From: a virus
Virus record (IMG/VR): IMGVR_UViG_3300035698_007623
Span: 1 to 40,159 of that record
Strand: one strand, 5' to 3'
DNA length: 40,159 nt
Below, piece after piece: positions 5,798-38,383 of this stretch. The notes beneath the pieces were generated by a model. It did not search any database, had not been told where the DNA came from, and worked only from the letters and a program-made list of their open reading frames with translations. The number at the start of each line of letters is the position of its first letter. The first letter of the stretch is position 1. The translations under genes were made by a program, and so were the position numbers.

Positions 5798-6400
5798 ATG
5801 TCACAGATGAGAGTATTCGGATGGACTAATCCTGCAACAGCTGTTGTTAGGAACCAATCTATCGGATTTACAGCAAGTCAAATTACTGTAACAAACATAA
5901 CCGATGGAGCTCAGTATTACTGGGATTCATCAATGGCGGACGGATATTACGTAACAGTAAGCTCAGGAGCCGTAACCACATCTAATGGTTTTACACCGTT
6001 AGCACAATCAACAGCAGTTGGCGCTACTATTAGTGGCTTCACAAATGCCAACCCAGGGGTAATCACTGTCAATGACACTGCTACTTTTGGTTTTGCTGCT
6101 GGAGACACAATAAAAGTATCAGAAGTAGCTGATGATCTAACAGGAACACTAAGTTTAAACAACAACTTTACAGTGGCTTCTGTTACAGCAACAACTATCA
6201 CTCTTGTAGAAAATACAACTGTAACTGCATATAGCGTGTGGGTATCAGGTGGTAAGGCTGTAAGAGTATCAGATACTAGCGGTATAGCGATACCGATAGA
6301 GAACTTAGCGATCGGTGGAATTACTTTAGGAACAGGCGTTGTTGGAACAGACGATGATGTTATGACTATGGTTGTCCATGGCGAGAACGTAGTAGTGTAG
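5798..6400 (+). CDS. Virion protein with FCCH-like beta module
   Basis: This 200-residue, Thr/Val/Ala/Gly-rich, beta-dominated protein is encoded ten bases after the capsid gene with a strong AAGGAGG site. Residues about 80-145 (ISGFTNANPGVITVNDTATFGFAAGDTIKVSEV...FTVASVTATTITL) match a repeat common in phage structural proteins and often annotated as an E1 FCCH-like domain. Two related copies occur in the protein at 8852-11029. Location after the coat gene suggests a head decoration or capsid-stabilising protein. Confidence 0.8.
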   Translation: MSQMRVFGWTNPATAVVRNQSIGFTASQITVTNITDGAQYYWDSSMADGYYVTVSSGAVTTSNGFTPLAQSTAVGATISGFTNANPGVITVNDTATFGFAAGDTIKVSEVADDLTGTLSLNNNFTVASVTATTITLVENTTVTAYSVWVSGGKAVRVSDTSGIAIPIENLAIGGITLGTGVVGTDDDVMTMVVHGENVVV

Positions 6401-6417
6401 TTTAAAAGCTACAGATA

Positions 6418-6470
6418 AGAACCACAAAGGGTTGGAGGCTTAGTTCCTCCTCCCTTTTATTAACGTGAGG
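6418..6470 (+). promoter_or_regulatory. AGAACCAC...AACGTGAGG leader
   Basis: AGAACCAC occupies 6418-6425 and AACGTGAGG 6462-6470, the latter serving as ribosome-binding site for ATG 6476. Spacing is 14-17 bases longer than in the other paired copies because a terminator-like hairpin (6434-6455) lies between the two halves. Confidence 0.5.
6434..6457 (+). terminator. Probable intrinsic terminator after the coat gene cluster
   Basis: GGAGG (6434-6438) and CCTCC (6446-6450) form a stem with a 7-nt loop, followed by TCCCTTTTATT. It could attenuate transcription after the highly expressed capsid genes. The stem is short, so partial termination or an RBS-masking hairpin is possible. Confidence 0.5.
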
Positions 6471-6475
6471 TAGAT

Positions 6476-6835
6476 ATGAGTCAAGACAAACAGCAAACAG
6501 CAAAGGTAGACGACCTTCAAAAGTTGCCGATCATAGGAAAGCAACCAGCGAGTGAAAAGGAAGAAAAATTCCTTCGAGAAGTCTGCGAGTTTGAGTTTAT
6601 GAACATGGAAGAGCCTGGACTTTCACAAAGGTTTCCGTATGGAAATGCCAAGAAAAACCACAATTTTACGCTATTTCATGGGGGAAAATACAAGCTCCCG
6701 AGGTTTATAGCACAGTGGGTAGAGTCAAGAACCACTCCACTATGGGACTGGCGTCCTAACGGTGAAGGTGGAATGACTAAAAAACTAATAGGTCAAAACC
6801 CTAGATTTCAAATGAGACAGGTATTCGGAGGATAA
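6476..6835 (+). CDS. Hypothetical virion-module protein
   Basis: This 119-residue protein has a charged N terminus and a conserved-looking core (EEPGLSQRFPYGNAKKNHNFTLFHGGKYKLPRFIAQWVESRTTPLWDW). I recognise the pattern as one seen near capsid genes in N4-gp56-type phages but know of no function. ATG follows GTGAGG, and the stop is one base from the next start, so it is coupled to the connector gene. A head-tail joining role is only inference. Confidence 0.8.
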   Translation: MSQDKQQTAKVDDLQKLPIIGKQPASEKEEKFLREVCEFEFMNMEEPGLSQRFPYGNAKKNHNFTLFHGGKYKLPRFIAQWVESRTTPLWDWRPNGEGGMTKKLIGQNPRFQMRQVFGG

Positions 6836-6836
6836 A

Positions 6837-7730
6837 ATGGCTACGTGGACCAAAGCAGATATAATTGAAAAAATTAGACAGGTTACAGGCAGATTTAGTG
6901 AAGATGATATGTCTAATGCTGAAATCAGTGATAGATTAAACAAATATTATCAATTGCGCTTCCCTGCTGAAGTTAAGCTTGAACAAAAGCATACGTATTA
7001 TGAGTTTCAAACAAGCGAAAATCAGGCTACATATGATGCGCCAGACGCTACATATACTAACTTTGAGCCTCCAGCTACTGTAAACAACCTATCAATGCTA
7101 TGGTACCAGGATTCGGCTAAATTTGAGAACGAGAACCCTCTCCAATATAATTTTACAAAACCATGGACGGGTGATGGGATCACGCTTACTTTTACGACAA
7201 CAGCGCAAAGCTTTCCTTTATACCCGTCTACTTTAACAATTACTGACAATACAGAGACATTTGAGGACACAAACGCTACCTATACCACAGCAGACATAGT
7301 AATAACGGGATCGGCTGGCGGATCGGCTACTATCAATTATAGCACTGGGGCGGTTTCTGTAACTTTTGCTGTTGCTCCAACAAATGGACAGTTAATTTAT
7401 CTAAATTATGTCCAATTTAAGGCAGGCAGACCAGAGGCAATACTTTATTTTAACAACCAATTCCAACTATTTCCTGTGCCTGACCAACTATATATTATTA
7501 GAATGAGGTCATACCAGATAGTAGTAGCTCTTACAAATGCTTCAGATAGGCCAGAATTGGACGAATGGGGCCCTTGTTTAGCATACGGCACATGTCTAGG
7601 CATCTTTGCAGATTACGGCGAGAATGACGCCTATTCAGAGACTACATCATTGCATAAAGAGCAAATTTCTATTGTGCTAACAAGGACTGAACAAGATTTA
7701 TTAAATACAAGGGCAATGCCCAACTTTTAA
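6837..7730 (+). CDS. Putative head-tail connector protein
   Basis: This 297-residue protein opens with a helical segment (TKADIIEKIRQVTGRFSEDDMSNAEISDRLNKYYQLRFPAEV) resembling the start of head-completion or adaptor proteins that sit under the portal in podoviruses. A beta-rich middle follows (TWTG-like GDGITLTFTTTAQSFPLYPSTLTITD), then a helical C terminus (LAYGTCLGIFADYGENDAYSE...). It lies between capsid and nozzle genes. GGAGG precedes the ATG. Assignment is by position and fold impression, not by a decisive motif. Confidence 0.72.
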   Translation: MATWTKADIIEKIRQVTGRFSEDDMSNAEISDRLNKYYQLRFPAEVKLEQKHTYYEFQTSENQATYDAPDATYTNFEPPATVNNLSMLWYQDSAKFENENPLQYNFTKPWTGDGITLTFTTTAQSFPLYPSTLTITDNTETFEDTNATYTTADIVITGSAGGSATINYSTGAVSVTFAVAPTNGQLIYLNYVQFKAGRPEAILYFNNQFQLFPVPDQLYIIRMRSYQIVVALTNASDRPELDEWGPCLAYGTCLGIFADYGENDAYSETTSLHKEQISIVLTRTEQDLLNTRAMPNF

Positions 7731-7740
7731 GGAGTAGAAA

Positions 7741-7758
7741 ATGGCTTACGATGTATAA
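7741..7758 (+). pseudogene. Orphaned start of the fibre-like gene (MAYDV-stop)
   Basis: A perfect ribosome-binding site (AAGGAG, 7730-7735) and ATG begin a five-codon frame that stops at TAA 7756-7758. The five residues MAYDV resemble the MSWDK that starts the intact gene at 8308. The simplest reading is that the HNH gene inserted a few codons into that gene, leaving this stub and supplying a new start downstream. Confidence 0.45.
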
Positions 7759-7784
7759 TACCAACAAGTACTAACGAGGTTTTT

Positions 7785-8327
7785 ATGCATTATGAAAAAA
7801 TAATTAAGTGTAAATGTTGTTCTAAAGATTTTTTAAGAACAAATATTGGGATAAAATATTGCTCTGATGAATGTAAAATATTAGACAATATAAAGAAAAA
7901 TAAAAATGGATGTTGGGAATGGCAGCGATTTACAAATTTTGGATATGGTGTAGCGTATGTAAGAGGAAAAACCACACCTGCTCACAGAGCTTCTTACATG
8001 TTATTCAAAGGAGAGATCCCAAAAGGTAAAGTAGTATGCCATAAATGTGATAATAGAAAATGTGTAAATCCAGCTCATTTATTTGTCGGAAGTCAAAAAG
8101 ATAATATTAGGGATATGGATGAAAAAGGAAGACGAGCAGATATTAAGGGAGAAAAACATCCTTTAAGAAAATTAACGGAGTATGATGTGAAAATTATAAA
8201 AAGATTATTAAAAGAAGGTGTTCGAAATATAAAAATTGCAAAAGTTTTTGATGTTGATCAATCAACAATTTCAGACATTAAAAGAGAGAGAAGATGGAGG
8301 CATATAAATGAGCTGGGACAAAAGTAA
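7785..8327 (+). CDS. Free-standing HNH homing endonuclease
   Basis: This 180-residue protein has three parts. First is an N-terminal Cys4 zinc finger (CKCC...CSDEC, residues about 9-30). Second is an HNH_3-type core (GCWEWQRFTNFGYG, AHRASYMLFKGEIP, VCHKCDNRKCVNPAHLFVGSQKDN). Third is a C-terminal DNA-binding helix-turn-helix (LTEYDVKIIKRLLKEGVRNIKIAKVFDVDQSTISDIKRE). Such genes invade phage genomes by cutting a recipient near the insertion site. It lies between connector and fibre-like genes, is noticeably more A/T-rich than both, and its 3' end overlaps the next gene by 20 bases. GAGG seven bases before ATG 7785 supports the start. It is not related in sequence to the HNH nested in the intein. 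Confidence 0.9.
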   Translation: MHYEKIIKCKCCSKDFLRTNIGIKYCSDECKILDNIKKNKNGCWEWQRFTNFGYGVAYVRGKTTPAHRASYMLFKGEIPKGKVVCHKCDNRKCVNPAHLFVGSQKDNIRDMDEKGRRADIKGEKHPLRKLTEYDVKIIKRLLKEGVRNIKIAKVFDVDQSTISDIKRERRWRHINELGQK

Positions 8328-8847
8328 ACCCACTAATTCTGAGAAAATAAGAGAATTGGGCGAGGTAATAAGACCAAATTGGGATGCCATTGAATCGGCT
8401 GACACTACATTTAAGCCCCTTGGTTTAAATTTTGACAAAAATGCAATAGATAGACCGTCAATAACTGATGCTGTCGTAGTATATAACAAAAATAATGAGT
8501 TATTTGCAAGGGTTTCATCAGGAACCATTACACAATTAACAGGAAACGGCGCTATTAGAGCATGGGCAACTTTTAACGGGGGAAGTGGAGCTGTAGCAGA
8601 TAGTTTTAATGTTACTTCAGTTACTCGAAATTCTACTGGAAATTACACTGTTTTAATGCCAAATGCAATGGCTAGTGCTAATTATGCCGTAATATCGGCT
8701 GGAAGTATGAACTCTGCTTTTACTGTAGGCGGGATTATTGGATATAAAGTAACAAACACAACTACCTTTAATATTTATGTAAGATCATTAACCGCTGCAA
8801 GTGGGGCTGACCTAAATCCAGTTTCTTTCATTGTAGTAGGAGACTAA
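8308..8847 (+). CDS. Tail-fibre-like structural protein
   Basis: This 179-residue protein has a short helical start (SEKIRELGEVIRPNWDAIES) and a beta-rich C-terminal half (IRAWATFNGGSGAVADSFNVTSVTRNSTGNYTVLMPNAMASANYAVI). That pattern is common at the tips of phage fibres and in tail-associated adhesins. Its start overlaps the HNH gene, whose insertion probably replaced the original first codons (see 7741-7758). GGAGG at 8296-8300 serves as the ribosome-binding site within the HNH coding region, so expression now depends on sequence inside the endonuclease gene. Confidence 0.78.
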   Translation: MSWDKSKPTNSEKIRELGEVIRPNWDAIESADTTFKPLGLNFDKNAIDRPSITDAVVVYNKNNELFARVSSGTITQLTGNGAIRAWATFNGGSGAVADSFNVTSVTRNSTGNYTVLMPNAMASANYAVISAGSMNSAFTVGGIIGYKVTNTTTFNIYVRSLTAASGADLNPVSFIVVGD

Positions 8848-16270: not shown

Positions 16271-16402
16271 TTAATCATAGTTGATTATTTCTAAAGTTCC
16301 ATCTTCATGTTCAATTGTTCTCTGATATGGAAGACAAGGGGGTACAAATGTGTCTTCTTCAATATCTTTTAATATTTTATTTTCTTTATCATCAGTCTGC
16401 AT
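16271..16402 (-). CDS. Small acidic protein (43 aa)
   Basis: This 43-residue frame (MQTDDKENKILKDIEEDTF...) lies between the converging structural and accessory operons and continues the minus-strand gene chain. It overlaps the 24-residue gene upstream by 11 bases. The peptide is acidic with a VPPCLPYQ turn in the middle; no family is recognised. The ribosome-binding site is modest (GTGAG). It is supported mainly by filling the gap in a tightly packed operon. Confidence 0.45.
   Translation of the reverse strand: MQTDDKENKILKDIEEDTFVPPCLPYQRTIEHEDGTLEIINYD
16272..16287. terminator. Inverted repeat between convergent operons
   Basis: TAATCA (16272-16277), loop TAGT, and TGATTA (16282-16287) form a perfect 6-bp stem directly after the stop of the large ejection gene, followed by TTTCT on the plus strand. 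It lies where transcription from both sides converges. The AT-rich stem is weak, so this is a candidate only. Confidence 0.35.
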
Positions 16403-16466
16403 GCCACTCACATATCTCCCATATAATTATAAATAATAGTTTAAATGGTAAAAGTATAATTCCCAT
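16392..16466 (-). CDS. Tiny hydrophobic protein (24 aa)
   Basis: Just after the stop of the HTH/alpha-CTD gene, a strong GGAGGAGTGAG site precedes an ATG that opens a 24-codon frame. It reads MGIILLPFKLLFIIIWEICE and then WHAD. Almost the whole peptide is one membrane-spanning stretch. It overlaps the start of the 43-residue gene. A single-pass mini-membrane protein of unknown role is the only supportable description. Confidence 0.45.
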   Translation of the reverse strand: MGIILLPFKLLFIIIWEICEWHAD

Positions 16467-16467
16467 C

Positions 16468-16908
16468 TCACTCCTCCTTCAGCATATAGCCTAGACTTAC
16501 TAGTTTTTCTTCTATTTCTTCTATAGACTTTTTGCCTAAGTTTCTTGTTCTCATTAGTTTATTTTTTGTAAGTTTTGATAATTCCACTACTGTTTTAATA
16601 CCTACGTTGTGTAAAGCGTTGTATGTTCTAGTGGTAAATTCTAAATGTGCAAGAGACACCTCATTCAGTTTATTTACATAAGTTAAAATTTCTTTATCTA
16701 CTTTGACTATCTTACTATTATTTTCTGAGTGAGATTCCATCCACTCATCAAACAAATCTTCTCTTATGTAAACTCTCCTACCAATTTTTCTAATACTGGT
16801 AGCAAGGCCATTTTTCTTTCTATTAGTGACGAGTGCTCGCATTTGCCCCATACTAAAAGGATATTTATCGTCATTAACGATGTCTTTGATACATACATAT
16901 TTTTTCAC
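16468..16908 (-). CDS. HTH (excisionase-like) fused to RNA polymerase alpha C-terminal domain
   Basis: This 146-residue protein has two halves. Residues about 5-58 (IKDIVNDDKYPFSMGQMRALVTNRKKNGLATSIRKIGRRVYIREDLFDEWME) look like an AlpA/excisionase-type winged HTH. Residues about 84-143 match the RNA polymerase alpha-subunit C-terminal domain. The bacterial DNA-contact residues are preserved in pattern: Arg94 and Asn97 in the TTRTYNAL helix start, and Gly125-Lys126-Lys127-Ser128 in NLGKKSIEEI. Alpha-CTD normally binds UP elements and activators; fused to a site-specific HTH it could recruit or redirect host polymerase, or act as a directionality factor for the integrase three genes upstream. 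Its start overlaps the previous stop by one base. Confidence 0.85.
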   Translation of the reverse strand: MKKYVCIKDIVNDDKYPFSMGQMRALVTNRKKNGLATSIRKIGRRVYIREDLFDEWMESHSENNSKIVKVDKEILTYVNKLNEVSLAHLEFTTRTYNALHNVGIKTVVELSKLTKNKLMRTRNLGKKSIEEIEEKLVSLGYMLKEE

Positions 16909-17165
16909 TATATCGTCTCCTTCTCTTTCCGTTTTTCATTTGCTTCTTCCATGAAACATTTAGTAGCTTCTTTTCTTATTAGTTTTTTCATTATGCGCTT
17001 GTTTTGAAAAAGCCCACACAAGTCACCCAATAAGAAGCCACTGGTAGTACAAACCACACAATACATAATTGTGCTCACTGGTTGCTCATACCAAATAAAA
17101 GAAATCACACCATTAGCAAACAAACAAATACACAATATCAGTAATGTGATATAGTCTTTTTTCAT
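16908..17165 (-). CDS. Small two-pass membrane protein
   Basis: This 85-residue protein has two hydrophobic segments, TLLILCICLFANGVISFIWY (about 7-26) and TIMYCVVCTTSGFLLGDLCG (about 32-51). A highly charged C-terminal tail follows (NKRIMKKLIRKEATK...NEKRKEKETI). The basic tail predicts a cytoplasmic C terminus. It overlaps both neighbours by 1-4 bases, so it is cotranslated. There is no family assignment; a superinfection-exclusion or holin-like role is possible but not shown. Confidence 0.72.
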   Translation of the reverse strand: MKKDYITLLILCICLFANGVISFIWYEQPVSTIMYCVVCTTSGFLLGDLCGLFQNKRIMKKLIRKEATKCFMEEANEKRKEKETI

Positions 17166-17701
17166 ATTTTAAACCTATTTTTTATTACAGTCATCTTTAG
17201 CCAAGTATCATTTGATAAATTACTGGCCAATTTGCAAGCGTCTAAATGACCTTCAATGGCTTGTTCTTCAGTTGAATATCTTTCCATATAGTCAGTTAGC
17301 TCATCTTCCTTGTCATCATTATCATTAAATATCATTGTTTCAAAAATAAGAATAACATGTCCCTCCTCCTCAGTTGAAAAAGACCAGTTGTGGTCCGATC
17401 CTAACCAAACTGTAGACACTTTATATTCACCAAACCTATGGGCATCCACTATTTTATATTCATAGTCTTCAAAATAACACGACCATTCCCATAGACTAAT
17501 CGGTTTGCCTTGTCTATCATAATATGAATGTAAAGCGGGCAATCCAAATTTAGTCCCTCCTGCCCAGCTAGGGGAAAACTCATCCATTGCCTTTTTAGAT
17601 TTTTGTAAAAACTCTAATTCCTTCTTCTGTTTTTCTGAGAGCGTCTCATACGACATTGATTCTAGCTCTACTAATAACTTAGATTTATTATGTGATTTCA
17701 T
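17162..17701 (-). CDS. Conserved phage hypothetical protein (YDRQGKPI / WLGSDHNW type)
   Basis: This 179-residue protein has a helical charged N terminus (about 1-40). The core motifs HSYYDRQGKPISLWEWSCYFEDYEYKIV, KVSTVWLGSDHNW and LIFETMIF are followed by a YSTEEQAIEGH segment. I recognise this motif order from many unrelated phage genomes, where it is of unknown function. The Asp/His/Trp-rich motifs suggest an active site or metal site, but I cannot name a reaction. It overlaps the genes on both sides by four bases. Confidence 0.82.
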   Translation of the reverse strand: MKSHNKSKLLVELESMSYETLSEKQKKELEFLQKSKKAMDEFSPSWAGGTKFGLPALHSYYDRQGKPISLWEWSCYFEDYEYKIVDAHRFGEYKVSTVWLGSDHNWSFSTEEEGHVILIFETMIFNDNDDKEDELTDYMERYSTEEQAIEGHLDACKLASNLSNDTWLKMTVIKNRFKI

Positions 17702-17919
17702 TTTTTCCGCCTTTTATTCGAGTCTCTAAATATTTCTAAACAATGCCGTTTTAATGTATCAAACAAGCTTATGATTTGTTCTTCATTTTCCAACGTCAAA
17801 GCACTCATTGTTACTATATATGTAGATAAACCACACATTATATAATGTGAAGAATGGGTTTTTGATTGTTCATCTACAAAAGCGGCAATCGCATTTTTAA
17901 TCCCATCATGTTTATTCAT
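17698..17919 (-). CDS. Hypothetical small protein
   Basis: This 73-residue protein (MNKHDGIKNAIAAFVDEQSK..., ending SNKRRKK) is predicted to be mostly helical and basic at the C terminus. It starts inside the last codons of the recombinase gene (ATGA-type overlap). No domain is recognised. Its placement between the recombinase and accessory genes makes a lysogeny-related role possible but unsupported. Confidence 0.65.
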   Translation of the reverse strand: MNKHDGIKNAIAAFVDEQSKTHSSHYIMCGLSTYIVTMSALTLENEEQIISLFDTLKRHCLEIFRDSNKRRKK

Positions 17920-18902
17920 ATTAACACCAACTTTTTTGTATAATTATCTTCAGCACTACTTTTATCGTAGGCATAAATCATTTTAGATGACCTATGTCCA
18001 GTTACTTTCATTATTTCTGAATCAGGCACACCCTGTGTTTTAGCAAGAGTCACCCACGTTGCCCTTAAAACGTGTGGTGTTACTTTCTTAATCCCAGCAG
18101 CCGTAGAAGCCTTAAAAAATGAAAAATTAAGACGAGACCTGTGTAATTTCTGGCCTTGATTAGAAATAAATACAAGCGCATCTTCATTCCGCCGATCCTT
18201 GGTTAAGTGTAGATAGTCTTTTAACACGCTTAGAAAGGGCATAGGGAAGCTTATATACATCCAACGTAGAGTGCCACGTGCCTTGCTCTGAACGAAGCGT
18301 ATGATGCCTTTATCGAAGTCTATGCAATCTTCTGTCACTTTCAAAACTTCCGATATTCTTTTAGCCCCTTGAAGCATGCATTTAGCAATTAGTGAGTCTC
18401 TTAAATTTATCTTCTCTAAGCTAGCAATAAATTTGTGCCATTCGTATAAAGTTAAGGCCTCAGTAGCACACTTGTCCCTAATCTGAAAAAAGGTTTTATT
18501 AGACGCTAGGTTAGATGGAGTCGCTCTTCTAAACCATCCATAGGAAATCCTGCTTAGATAAGAGGTTAGGCTTATATAACAAGAGGCTCTGCATTGTCTC
18601 GTTCCTTCGCCCCATTCTTTAACTTTTTTGATATTATCTATATTTATTTCGTGAGGTATTTCATTAAACGCTTCAACCGTTGAATCTGGCACAAATCCCC
18701 TGACCATCAAATCCATAATATTATATGAGTAATTCCTCTGCGTTTCACCATGTAAATTGCTGAGCCACTCTCTTATAGCTGTTCTAAGGGGCGAATTAGC
18801 TAAATCCGATATAAAGGTTGCCCTAGACTGTTTTAGGTCTTGTATGGCAGCAAAGAGATCTAACTGGTGGGGTTCGGTCTCATTCTTTATTAATACGCTC
18901 AT
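17916..18902 (-). CDS. Tyrosine recombinase (integrase), chlamydial-plasmid pGP7/8-like
   Basis: This 328-residue site-specific recombinase has a core-binding domain at about 30-145 and a catalytic domain at about 150-325. The catalytic set is complete: Arg182 (GAKRISEVL), Lys207 (SKARGT), His277 and Arg280 (PHVLRATW), His303 (TGHRSS) and Tyr312 (AYDKSS). Stretches such as EGTRQCRASCYISLT, MLQGAKRISEVL, TPHVLRATWVT and IMKVTGHRSSKMIYAYDKSS resemble, from memory, the pGP7-D/pGP8-D integrases of the chlamydial plasmid more than lambda-type integrases. It would integrate the phage or resolve multimers. AAGGA precedes ATG 18902, directly after the upstream stop. No attachment site was identified. 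Confidence 0.93.
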   Translation of the reverse strand: MSVLIKNETEPHQLDLFAAIQDLKQSRATFISDLANSPLRTAIREWLSNLHGETQRNYSYNIMDLMVRGFVPDSTVEAFNEIPHEINIDNIKKVKEWGEGTRQCRASCYISLTSYLSRISYGWFRRATPSNLASNKTFFQIRDKCATEALTLYEWHKFIASLEKINLRDSLIAKCMLQGAKRISEVLKVTEDCIDFDKGIIRFVQSKARGTLRWMYISFPMPFLSVLKDYLHLTKDRRNEDALVFISNQGQKLHRSRLNFSFFKASTAAGIKKVTPHVLRATWVTLAKTQGVPDSEIMKVTGHRSSKMIYAYDKSSAEDNYTKKLVLI

Positions 18903-19193
18903 CTATTCCTTCTCTGAAGAGGGTGGGGTTCGGTCGATTCCATTCGATTGATCCATAAACTTAGTCAATGTTGCGAAAAAGAACTCATTTAGCCATTCAT
19001 TAAATTCTTTTCCTTTTGGAATAGATTTGTACATTTTTAAATTGATCCATATGTTTTTAGCTACCATCAAGAATAACCAATTGAAATCCTTTTCCGACAA
19101 AGTTAAATCAGGGAAGTTCTTGGCGTCCTCTAAAAACTTTTTAAAGTCATAGTAAACTTTGCCATTGTAAAAACCCTTTATCTTATCCTTCAC
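18903..19193 (-). CDS. Hypothetical protein, GTG start
   Basis: This 96-residue protein has aromatic and charged helices (FYNGKVYYDFKKFLEDAKNF, FNWLFLMVAKNIWINLKMY, FNEWLNEFFFATLTKFM). It starts with GTG overlapping the previous stop (TTGTGA). The start is preceded by GGAGGACAG, one of three near-identical junction cassettes in this operon. No family is recognised. It ends immediately before the recombinase start. Confidence 0.7.
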   Translation of the reverse strand: MKDKIKGFYNGKVYYDFKKFLEDAKNFPDLTLSEKDFNWLFLMVAKNIWINLKMYKSIPKGKEFNEWLNEFFFATLTKFMDQSNGIDRTPPSSEKE

Positions 19194-19675
19194 AAACTGT
19201 CCTCCATCAACATAGATTTTCTTTTTAAAAAAGAAGCTTGTTCATCAAATATATCTGCATTAGTTGGAACAATTTCTTTTAGTTTATTTATAACATTAAA
19301 AGAAGATGGATCTATTTTTCCACTTTCGTATTCTTTAATTAAAACTTTAGCTTCTCTTGTAAATAGAATTTTTAACTCTTCAGCACAAGTTTCTACATCT
19401 ATATATTTTGAATAACTCTTATCAATGTCTCCATTAGCGCGTTTTTTAAGCAAGAGAAACACCTTTAGCGCATTTTCAAAAATATCAATCATACATGAAC
19501 CAATTGAAACTTTAACAAATAGTTGTAATAAATCTAATCGTATATAAGCTCCATTTTTTTCTTTGCTTTTCGTTGAACATAATTTTATTATTTCTTCAAA
19601 TATAAAGTTTAAAGGTTCTGTCATAGTTTTATCTAATTTATCCATCTTTATAATTAATTCTTCTGCATAATTCAT
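19190..19675 (-). CDS. Hypothetical helical protein
   Basis: This 161-residue, strongly helical protein starts MNYAEELIIKMDKLDKTMTE. I chose ATG 19675 because it overlaps the upstream stop as ATGA and has GGAGGACAG six bases before it; an upstream frame adds seven residues that merely read through that site. It ends with ...LMEDSL, the peptide encoded by the next junction cassette. No domain is recognised. Confidence 0.72.
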   Translation of the reverse strand: MNYAEELIIKMDKLDKTMTEPLNFIFEEIIKLCSTKSKEKNGAYIRLDLLQLFVKVSIGSCMIDIFENALKVFLLLKKRANGDIDKSYSKYIDVETCAEELKILFTREAKVLIKEYESGKIDPSSFNVINKLKEIVPTNADIFDEQASFLKRKSMLMEDSL

Positions 19676-19992
19676 AAACTGTCCTCCATAGCACACATGG
19701 TTTTATTTATTGCTTCTTTCATTTCTTTACGCATTTCAATATATTTCTTTACGTCTTCACATAGCTCAAAATCGCCCTTAAATAAAACTATACATGTTCC
19801 AGTGACAATTTTTTCTCCAGTTAACGGATAATCAATATTCATTCTATCATATGCAGTCATAGCCGTTTCCATTAGCACCAGATGATCTGGTTGATCGTTG
19901 GGTTCTAGCCATATGCCGCAATCACATTTACCATCATTTATCTTGCTTTTGCATTTATCACATATCCCATCATTACGACTTGTCCATTTCAT
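19672..19992 (-). CDS. Small zinc-ribbon protein
   Basis: This 106-residue protein starts MKWTSRNDGICDKCKSKIND. A CxxC...CDC arrangement near residues 11-25 (CDKC, CDCG) suggests a zinc ribbon. The remainder is helical, ending TMCAMEDSL, whose codons double as the ribosome-binding site of the following gene. The start at 19992 follows GGAGGACAG and a short 12-codon frame (MNKTMCAMEDSL) that is a copy of this protein's own C-terminal codons. Its function is unknown. Confidence 0.7.
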   Translation of the reverse strand: MKWTSRNDGICDKCKSKINDGKCDCGIWLEPNDQPDHLVLMETAMTAYDRMNIDYPLTGEKIVTGTCIVLFKGDFELCEDVKKYIEMRKEMKEAINKTMCAMEDSL

Positions 19993-20023
19993 AAACTGTC
20001 CTCCATAGCACACATGGTTTTAT

Positions 20024-20293
20024 TCATAAGTTTTCATTCTTACAATCCATCTCTTTCAAAAGGACTGCAACCCTTTCTTCTAAAAGTGGATGAAGTACTA
20101 TTGGTGTTTTATCTATAATCCTGTTTATTTTTTCCAAAAGATATTCTTTATGTATGACCTCTCCTTCATGGTGCAGAACTAAACAAAACAACTTTATCAG
20201 TTCCTCATCAACAGATTTAAACATAGAACTCCATCCTTGGGGAAATCTAATTTCAGAGTTAGCTTCATCAATAGTACCAAGGAGATCCTCCAT
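20024..20293 (-). CDS. Hypothetical small helical protein
   Basis: This 89-residue frame begins MEDLLGTIDEANSEIRF. An internal ATG at 20224 (MFKSVDEELIKL) has the better site, AAGGATGGAG, four bases before it and would give 66 residues. The sequence is helical with a VLHHEGEVIHKEYLLEKINRIID stretch. No family is recognised. It belongs to the same minus-strand operon as the recombinase. Confidence 0.6.
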   Translation of the reverse strand: MEDLLGTIDEANSEIRFPQGWSSMFKSVDEELIKLFCLVLHHEGEVIHKEYLLEKINRIIDKTPIVLHPLLEERVAVLLKEMDCKNENL

Positions 20294-20324
20294 TGCTTCA
20301 TTTTTTTTGAGTTTTGTCTGTCAT

Positions 20325-20573
20325 CTATGCCTCTGCTTTTTTTTCTTTTTCTTCTTTTTCTCTTTTTAAGTTTTTCAGCATACCAGCTATAGACTGCAAG
20401 CATCCATGGTTAGTCATTCCCCATTCTAAATCTTCATTAAATTCATATTTAGCAACTTTAGCTAGACCAAGGGGTTTAAATATTATATCTAGGCATTCTT
20501 CTATCATCTCGACTAATTCCTCTTCTTTTTCAAGGCTCTCCGTTAATAATCGTTTTAAATCTCTACTTGTCAT
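20325..20573 (-). CDS. Hypothetical acidic-helical protein
   Basis: This 82-residue protein is read from ATG 20573 (MTSRDLKRLLTESLEKEEEL), chosen over the longer frame because AAGGAG lies eight bases upstream. The middle has IFKPLGLAKVAKYEFNEDLEWGM, and the C terminus is Lys/Glu-repetitive (KNLKREKEEKEKKAEA), probably a charged coiled coil. It is the second gene of the operon after the ribbon-helix-helix gene. Function is unknown. Confidence 0.65.
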   Translation of the reverse strand: MTSRDLKRLLTESLEKEEELVEMIEECLDIIFKPLGLAKVAKYEFNEDLEWGMTNHGCLQSIAGMLKNLKREKEEKEKKAEA

Positions 20574-20632
20574 GTTAATTCTCCTTTTATATTCAATAAC
20601 GTGCAATTGTAGTTAAATTTTAAAGCTGTTTC

Positions 20633-20809
20633 TTACTCGCCTTTTTCATCGTAAATCTTGTTAAAATCTATAATTTGTGGTTTAGAAAGAAGAGCTGAAA
20701 TAGCCAGCCCAACTAAATAATTTATTGATCTTTCTTTCTTAGCTGCAAGGATTTTTAGTTCCTTGTGAATGTTAGGATGTAACCTAATCTTTAATTCTTT
20801 TTTAATCAT
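20633..20809 (-). CDS. Ribbon-helix-helix DNA-binding protein
   Basis: This roughly 58-residue protein starts MIKKELKIRLHPNIHKELKI. The pattern of a basic beta strand (KKELKIRL) and two helices (NIHKELKILAAKKER, SINYLVGLAISALL) is that of Arc/MetJ-type repressors, which bind operators as dimers of dimers. It is the first gene of the minus-strand operon and faces the fibre gene across a shared promoter region, so autoregulation is likely. The start is uncertain: ATG 20824 or GTG 20842 would add 5 or 11 residues, and none has a strong ribosome-binding site. Confidence 0.8.
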   Translation of the reverse strand: MIKKELKIRLHPNIHKELKILAAKKERSINYLVGLAISALLSKPQIIDFNKIYDEKGE

Positions 20810-20851
20810 GGGTACATTTTCCCACATTCGTGCATTTAACACAATAGTTAA

Positions 20852-20881
20852 TTGAAAAAAATCATTAAAATACTTATTATA
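20852..20881. promoter_or_regulatory. Overlapping divergent promoters
   Basis: On the plus strand TTGAAA (20852-20857), a 17-base spacer and TATTAT (20875-20880) form a good sigma70-like promoter for the fibre gene at 20936. On the minus strand TATAAT (20876-20881) overlaps that -10 box and could serve the accessory operon, although its -35 is poor. Shared boxes imply mutual exclusion, possibly controlled by the ribbon-helix-helix protein. Confidence 0.6.
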
Positions 20882-20893
20882 CAGTAAAAGCCC

Positions 20894-20930
20894 AGAACCA
20901 CATATCTAAGGGCATTTCTAACACGTGAGG
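20894..20930 (+). promoter_or_regulatory. AGAACCAC...ACACGTGAGG leader of first fibre gene
   Basis: AGAACCAC (20894-20901) begins about seven bases after the predicted start site of the 20852-20880 promoter, placing the motif in the 5' leader RNA. ACACGTGAGG (20921-20930) follows with 27-base spacing and provides the ribosome-binding site of ATG 20936. Confidence 0.55.
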
Positions 20931-20935
20931 AACAT

Positions 20936-30154: not shown

Positions 30155-30218
30155 CATCACCCTTGGCCTTCCAGCCTTTAGTTTTGTGTAACTTGTCTTG
30201 TTTTTAATTTCTATCACA

Positions 30219-30247
30219 AATATACTAAATTACATATTAAAAGGCAA
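30219..30247 (-). promoter_or_regulatory. Leftward promoter of the recT operon
   Basis: Read on the minus strand, TTGCCT (30242-30247), 17 bases and TATATT (30219-30224) form a sigma70-like promoter with a start near 30212. It lies between the divergent recT operon and the HTH gene at 30270, the usual place for operators of the HTH protein. Confidence 0.55.
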
Positions 30248-30269
30248 CTAAAAAGTAACCAAAGGTTTT

Positions 30270-38312: not shown

Positions 38313-38383
38313 GCCCGCTTAGTATAGTGGTATTACAGTAGATTTGTAACCTTCATACGGGAGTTCGATTCTCTCAGTGGGCA
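38313..38383 (+). tRNA. tRNA-Thr (TGT anticodon)
   Basis: The acceptor stem GCCCGCT (38313-38319) pairs with AGTGGGC (38376-38382), then discriminator A. The D arm is GTA-loop-TAC. The anticodon loop is TTTGTAA with TGT at 38345-38347, which reads ACA. The T arm is GGGAG-TTCGATT-CTCTC, and the variable loop has four to five bases. The anticodon stem is imperfect: GTAGA against CCTTC leaves a T-T and an A-C mismatch. CCA is not encoded. Threonine ACA codons are abundant in the Thr-rich fibre genes, a plausible benefit. Confidence 0.78.

Follow-up and report, generated by a model that had tools for sequence, protein, structure and literature searches.

In Escherichia coli, residues of the C-terminal domain of the RNA polymerase alpha subunit (alpha-CTD) are assigned to a DNA-contact (265), a sigma-contact (261) and an activator-contact (287) determinant. 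A second point of reference comes from mobile elements. In Gram-negative phage-inducible islands the alpA gene sits downstream of the integrase, and AlpA is called a master regulator and a positive autoregulator (PMC11773190). XisF4 is described as an excisionase-type protein that also activates phage genes (PMC7379572).

The window analyzed here, a stretch of 40,159 nucleotides of viral DNA, encodes a protein in which an N-terminal helix-turn-helix (HTH) is fused to an alpha-CTD. Our tentative reading, to which we give a probability of roughly 0.45, is that a phage regulator which binds DNA through a winged helix of the AlpA/Xis/BldC class has acquired a bacterial alpha-CTD and controls a recombinase module.

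Two intact domains joined by a linker

The fusion gene occupies positions 16468..16908 of the minus strand and encodes 146 amino acids from a GTG start. The plus-strand reading of the same positions is riddled with stops, which places the open reading frame on the minus strand, and the sequence upstream of the GTG, AAGGAGAC, resembles a ribosome-binding site. Residues 1-62 form a winged HTH (16723..16908, minus strand), residues 63-81 a linker (16666..16722, minus strand), and residues 82-146 the alpha-CTD (16471..16665, minus strand). An AlphaFold2 model of the full-length protein, built with five relatives, has two domains (mean pLDDT 78.5, pTM 0.42) separated by the low-confidence residues 63-81, where the pLDDT falls below 50. 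Most insertions and deletions in an alignment of the relatives also fall in the linker. It is clear that the protein consists of two intact domains joined by a flexible linker. An earlier sequence-only reading of this DNA had proposed an excisionase-like HTH fused to an alpha-CTD, and that architecture is upheld by the Pfam match to the alpha-CTD and by the predicted folds of both domains.

The C-terminus is a true alpha-CTD. The Pfam RNA_pol_A_CTD family (PF03118) spans residues 80-136 with 65.4 bits (cut-off 23.8), and the closest PDB sequences to the fusion protein are Bacillus alpha-CTDs (E 5e-12). In VIA-align the C-domain of the model superimposes on chain 1z3e_B of Bacillus subtilis with a Z of 13.1 and an rmsd of 0.9 A over 67 residues, at 42% identity. 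The rows below it are also RNA polymerase alpha chains, plastid ones among them, in a listing where the omission of a family does not rule that family out. Could the C-terminus instead be a generic helix-hairpin-helix unrelated to alpha-CTDs, the outcome that the sequence-only reading itself had named as its undoing? HHH_5 (13.1 bits) and IMS_HHH_1 do match, both weakly and below threshold. However, this alternative is contradicted by the far higher alpha-CTD score and by the fold matches, and we have dropped it as next to impossible. The alpha N-terminal assembly domain of RpoA is not present in the protein, the HTH standing in its place, and the NCBIfam rpoA models give at most 63.6 bits, below their cut-offs of at least 227.8. 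The window alpha-CTD is 31-37% identical to those of nine Chlamydiota RpoA proteins and up to 47% identical to one from a gut record.

The affiliation of the N-terminal half is looser. Modeled alone, the N-terminal 64 residues fold as a winged HTH (pLDDT 89.4). The best VIA-align matches are BldC (Z 6.5), the GIsul2 excisionase (6.4), Tn916 Xis (6.2) and a putative Klebsiella excisionase (6.0), followed by a phage P2 DNA-binding protein (5.8), RdfS (5.4) and lambda Xis (4.8). Excisionases and BldC thus head the list, at Z values (4.8-6.5) below the tool's safe level. Foldseek gave no match at E 0.001 with this model, and several excisionases are among the nearest folds. The Pfam HTH_17 family scores 19.8-20.0 bits, short of its cut-off of 27. 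Because the Z values are modest, the Foldseek E values exceed 0.001 and HTH_17 stays below its cut-off, "excisionase-like" denotes a resemblance of fold, not membership of a family. The label AlpA/Xis-like, given to this HTH from the sequence, therefore stands for the predicted fold, which resembles excisionases and BldC, but not for the sequence family.

A fusion family tied to recombinase genes

When IMG/VR viral contigs were scanned, L090-L094 each proved to encode a full-length, two-domain relative, with overall identities of 46-60%. The integrase led to L209, which brings the family to seven. It is 55% identical, scores 26.3 bits with PF03118 and loses part of its alpha-CTD to the contig end. 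The search for the same architecture elsewhere, which the first reading had recommended, has therefore been rewarded in six further viral contigs, five of them with complete copies. A last HTH scan of viral contigs yielded 20 loci. Six are fusions already described and twelve carry a stand-alone HTH gene (63-95 aa); the other two are L235 and L236. In L235 the HTH starts just behind an integrase that is 74% like that of the window, and the stretch ends inside the HTH; the partial HTH of L236 is unmatched by the HTH profile. A search of the twelve stand-alone-HTH records for PF03118 found none. PF03118 is present in two of 42 capsid-relative contigs (the longer ones of 80 loci, many being fragments), both belonging to L090-L094.

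Did the fusion arise once? In a tree of 38 HTH domains (59 columns, near-duplicate L229 excluded), the seven fused HTHs lie on one side of a branch of one change, with support values of 96/89 and 98% of 200 bootstraps; the tree as a whole is weak and L209 sits on a long branch. One fusion event therefore suffices, and the tree fits a single origin of the fusion shared by the window and the six viral contigs.

A fusion-alignment scan of genome contigs with two narrow patterns gave no match, and none of 50,697 phage records contains DNA nearly identical to 16400-20900. A protein search of the phage records matched 18, none covering 80% of the fusion protein. Unannotated matches labeled Listeria, Staphylococcus, Enterococcus, Salmonella or gut were taken as bacterial rpoA and set aside. 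In four gut records an alpha-CTD lies within a frame of 299-304 aa, and the domain of the Salmonella record is identical to that of E. coli at every position; the row from the Listeria record was left out of the alpha-CTD comparison. As a separate observation, phage records OR847224, MT839913, MT837710, OR851339 and others are unannotated and appear to contain bacterial rpoA. PHROGs has no family for an alpha-CTD phage protein, the best score being 15.6 bits with a PmgS-like family. In the open-access library searched we found no published description of an alpha-CTD joined to a Xis/AlpA-class winged HTH in a recombinase operon.

In the window the fusion gene closes a run of minus-strand genes, tightly spaced or overlapping, that extends from 20842 down to 16468. 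The run opens with a 69-aa ribbon-helix-helix protein (Arc/HicB-like; 20633..20842, minus strand), a candidate partner regulator. It includes a tyrosine integrase (17916..18902, minus strand; Pfam Phage_integrase, 77.5 bits) and an 85-aa open reading frame (16908..17165, minus strand) with a TAG stop codon that overlaps the GTG with which the fusion gene begins. Between the run and a tail-fibre-like gene lies a divergent control region (20843..20935, no strand assigned), a candidate target of the fusion protein. Two neighboring open reading frames of the window, 19190-19696 and 19672-20013, begin with the identical N-terminal peptide VCYGGQFM, which recurs at position 3004 of L091. Elsewhere, the left end of the window has an open reading frame with an Intein_splicing match (135-1199; Pfam, 40.1 bits) in a place where one would look for a packaging gene, and a phage-borne tRNA-Thr gene (anticodon tgt) lies at 38313-38383.

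The link with recombinases extends across the family. In all six fusion members with enough flank, a gene for a site-specific recombinase precedes the fusion gene in the same orientation (L092 offers just 83 bases of upstream flank). The place in an integrase operon, noted earlier from the window alone, holds there, and these six members support a link to the recombinase module; the fusion protein may control lysogeny. The type of recombinase differs: the window and L209 have a tyrosine recombinase, whereas that of L090, L091, L093 and L094 is a small serine recombinase. The L093 enzyme matches a PHROG annotated as DNA invertase (200 bits), and those of L090, L091 and L094 are 65-71% identical. 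A short HNH-type open reading frame accompanies the serine recombinase in all four (tested for L093). Opposite this recombinase, L091 (4629-5003) and L093 (4629-4952) have similar small open reading frames with a conserved Cys-containing C-terminus, ASCVAGCMGMPIGPFRA. The fusion gene follows the integrase directly in L209, its start codon sharing an ATGA with the integrase stop codon, and comes three open reading frames later in the window. Downstream of it, all six members with flank reaching that far have a convergent open reading frame, which resembles the protein of window positions 13748-16270 in L090 (60%), L093 (27%) and L094 (68%). In a related contig from a Chlamydiota metagenome-assembled genome (MAG), G043:C1, the tail-fibre homologue adjoins an open reading frame at the virion-gene position. 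The run is not between these genes, and therefore it behaves as an accessory module.

What if the fusion protein is a recombination directionality factor? It would then bind att sites, or inversion sites, used by the recombinase encoded alongside it and bend the DNA so as to set the direction, with the alpha-CTD as an extra clamp. The excisionases among the nearest folds would suit this role, as would the recombinase gene that is always upstream and the overlapping start in L209. However, the fusion protein is kept while the class of recombinase changes, and near the serine recombinases inverted repeats are scattered, none convincing as an inversion site. We regard this explanation as unlikely. 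The presence upstream of recombinases from two unrelated classes speaks for regulation and not for a factor serving one recombinase, and it is as a regulator of the module that we prefer to see the protein. Nevertheless, an excisionase role and that of a sigma-contacting activator are not mutually exclusive, since dual proteins like XisF4 are on record.

Conserved surfaces and proposed function

Which surfaces of the alpha-CTD has the family kept? The comparison took its numbering from E. coli RpoA (NC_000913) and covered the six complete members, L209 being excluded because the contig end cuts it. Window residues R94, N97, N123, G125, K127, S128 and E131 align with E. coli R265, N268, N294, G296, K298, S299 and E302. 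R94, N97 and the GKKS stretch (G125-K126-K127-S128, aligned to G296-S299) had been picked out beforehand as DNA-contact residues, correctly as it turns out. The sole difference of the window in the 265 determinant is an Ala at the C269 position. Across the six members the R265, G296, S299 and E302 positions never vary, the K298 position holds Lys or Arg throughout, N268 is kept in five and N294 in four. The eight columns of the DNA-contact set have a mean pairwise identity of 0.74, compared with 0.45 over 59 columns, and 82 of 20000 random column sets scored as high. The sigma-contact set gives 0.25, a value equaled or exceeded by 18131 of 20000 random sets, and the activator-contact set gives 0.46 (9465 of 20000). 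The DNA-contact positions are thus conserved beyond chance across the fusion family, whereas the sigma- and activator-contact positions are not.

The HTH half is far better conserved than the alpha-CTD half. Between the window and L090, dN is 0.085 for the HTH with dS saturated, whereas for the C-domain dN is 0.53 and dS 1.02. Given this difference in dN and the conserved DNA contacts, the alpha-CTD is the looser half with its DNA face held; its faster evolution counts against our reading. Helix-hairpin-helix residues of the GKKS type may be conserved for the fold alone. The conservation of the DNA contacts is therefore support rather than proof, and the overall pattern favors a role in DNA binding over one in polymerase contact.

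This bears on two further explanations. In one, the protein would activate transcription directly: its HTH would settle on a promoter, and its alpha-CTD would bring in polymerase by contacting sigma region 4, much like the alpha-CTD of polymerase itself. An acidic residue is present at the D259 position in five of the six members and at the E261 position in four, and AlpA and XisF4 are both described as activators (PMC11773190; PMC7379572). However, the window has a His at 259, with the Glu kept at 261, and the 261 set as a whole is no better conserved than random columns, so that direct activation strikes us as doubtful. The suggestion from the sequence that the protein steers host polymerase likewise finds little encouragement in the six complete members, since the 261 and 287 sets are not conserved above chance and the DNA-contact set is. 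The other explanation is a decoy for host takeover, with the alpha-CTD occupying host UP elements or titrating activators that contact alpha, lowering host transcription. The intact DNA-contact face would allow it. The 287 set, no better conserved than random columns, does not fit, and neither do the much better conservation of the HTH half and the placement of the gene, which is in a recombinase module and not in any evident cluster for early takeover; we consider a decoy highly improbable.

A regulator of the recombinase module could work as follows. The winged HTH would pick specific sites in the promoters of the module, and perhaps in other phage promoters. The tethered alpha-CTD would grip the adjacent AT-rich minor groove, as the alpha-CTD of RNA polymerase does at UP elements. 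This second, minor-groove grip might raise affinity, and the protein might rival or replace the alpha-CTD of polymerase at these sites. The likely output would be transcriptional control of the integration/recombination module, as either activation or repression.

Where might such sites lie? A sequence search for an operator at 20843-20935 or 30218-30269 found none, nor are there direct repeats of at least 8 bases in the tested control regions of the window, L209 and L094, and this speaks against our reading. The divergent control region contains, at 20910-20931, a leader, GGGCATTTCTAACACGTGAGGA, in front of the tail-fibre-like gene. It is identical to the letter in the window, L090 and L091 and absent (allowing up to 5 mismatches) from the other loci compared.

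Chlamydial relatives and known systems

One clue to the host comes from the HTH alone. A profile of this domain built from three rows matches 54 of 232 genomes of Chlamydiota, the only phylum searched. The 20 best loci encode proteins of 66-87 aa, too short to include an alpha-CTD. PF03118 matches in the 232 genomes are mostly rpoA. A repeat search of 28 genomes placed the additional matches in reading frames of roughly 365-450 or 660-690 aa, and a frame as short as that of an HTH protein was not among them. A non-RpoA protein of about 400 aa, with an alpha-CTD-like domain in its middle, is encoded by some Chlamydiota genomes (L190 1041-2339; 33.9 bits, residues 146-202).

An integrase-like gene precedes the stand-alone HTH at eight of eight loci examined by eye (up to 11 kb), and a CHC2-type primase open reading frame follows it at five (also by eye). 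At L197, the one locus tested, Pfam confirmed Phage_integrase, a CHC2 zinc finger and DUF3987. ARAGORN places a tRNA directly upstream of the integrase at three loci (L197, L201 and L202). Upstream of the integrase-like gene, all eight island loci (L197-L204) contain a direct repeat, CGGTGCA, at 11-base spacing (0-2 mismatches). As an operator common to phages and islands this repeat was rejected: it is missing from six of seven fusion loci, and the remaining one, L092, has only a 12-bp-spaced copy within a virion open reading frame. A tblastn search with one stand-alone HTH against 72,556 plasmid and 50,697 phage records gave no match.

The capsid leads to the same phylum. A capsid-alignment scan (two short patterns) of one genome per species for 84,980 species found one relative, 81% identical, in a Chlamydiae MAG (contig of 36,464 bases), and a capsid profile matches eight of the 232 Chlamydiota genomes. 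In L078, a close relative, the capsid gene (5848-8480) is interrupted near codon 88-103 by an insert with a 253-aa open reading frame that looks like a homing endonuclease. Capsid matches are split in other relatives too, and an Rfam scan of the L078 interruption at gathering thresholds found no intron family. The host of the phage is probably a member of the Chlamydiota, since the HTH family occurs in 54 of the 232 genomes and follows an integrase-like gene at all eight loci.

A bolder proposal is that Chlamydiota phages made an AlpA-type island regulator and the UP-element reader of polymerase into a one-protein promoter switch. The protein would recognize a composite of operator plus UP element and thereby decide whether polymerase can use its alpha-CTD at these targets. 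Because its HTH family is also that of the putative regulators of integrase-linked chlamydial islands, it might act on island promoters too, with crosstalk between phage and satellite. We consider this proposal unlikely. Should our reading be right, a phage would have turned the part of host RNA polymerase that reads DNA into a transcription switch, a natural counterpart of bacterial two-hybrid fusions and a new route by which phages might control UP-dependent promoters. It would also give a view into the regulation of Chlamydiota phages and islands, a group with little phage genetics. The fusion protein is small and can be tested in standard laboratory systems.

How does the fusion protein compare with known systems? 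Excisionases (lambda Xis, Tn916 Xis, RdfS and GIsul2 Xis) and BldC resemble its N-domain in predicted winged-HTH fold, at Z 4.8-6.5. However, they are 7-19% identical to it, and the fusion family adds an alpha-CTD and keeps company with more than one class of recombinase. AlpA regulators of phage-inducible islands are likewise small proteins of winged-HTH type encoded downstream of an integrase, a position that the stand-alone Chlamydiota proteins also hold. The fusion protein recalls AlpA in its predicted winged HTH and in its place behind an integrase gene in L209 and, less closely, in the window, whereas its HTH_17 score is below cut-off. AlpA is not known to carry an alpha-CTD, unlike the fusion protein. 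The HTH family of the fusion protein also includes stand-alone proteins from Chlamydiota islands and from other phages (e.g., L118-L137, L230). Among 12 aligned, identity to L118 is 44-68%, but at about 63-95 aa these proteins lack the alpha-CTD.

Alpha-CTDs in phage proteins look rare but recurrent. Others above the Pfam cut-off are Bacillus phage Goe8 c00050, Ruegeria phage V16 gp23 and proteins of viral contigs L002 and L240. The Goe8, V16 and L002 proteins have an alpha-CTD like the fusion protein but no second Pfam domain, whereas in L240 (1584-2450) the partner is DUF3310 rather than an HTH. RNA polymerase itself, represented by PF03118, B. subtilis 1z3e and E. coli RpoA, shares with the fusion protein the domain profile, the fold and the DNA-contact residues. 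In contrast to RpoA, the fusion protein has a winged HTH instead of the alpha N-terminal domain, and its family has not conserved the sigma- and activator-contact sets.
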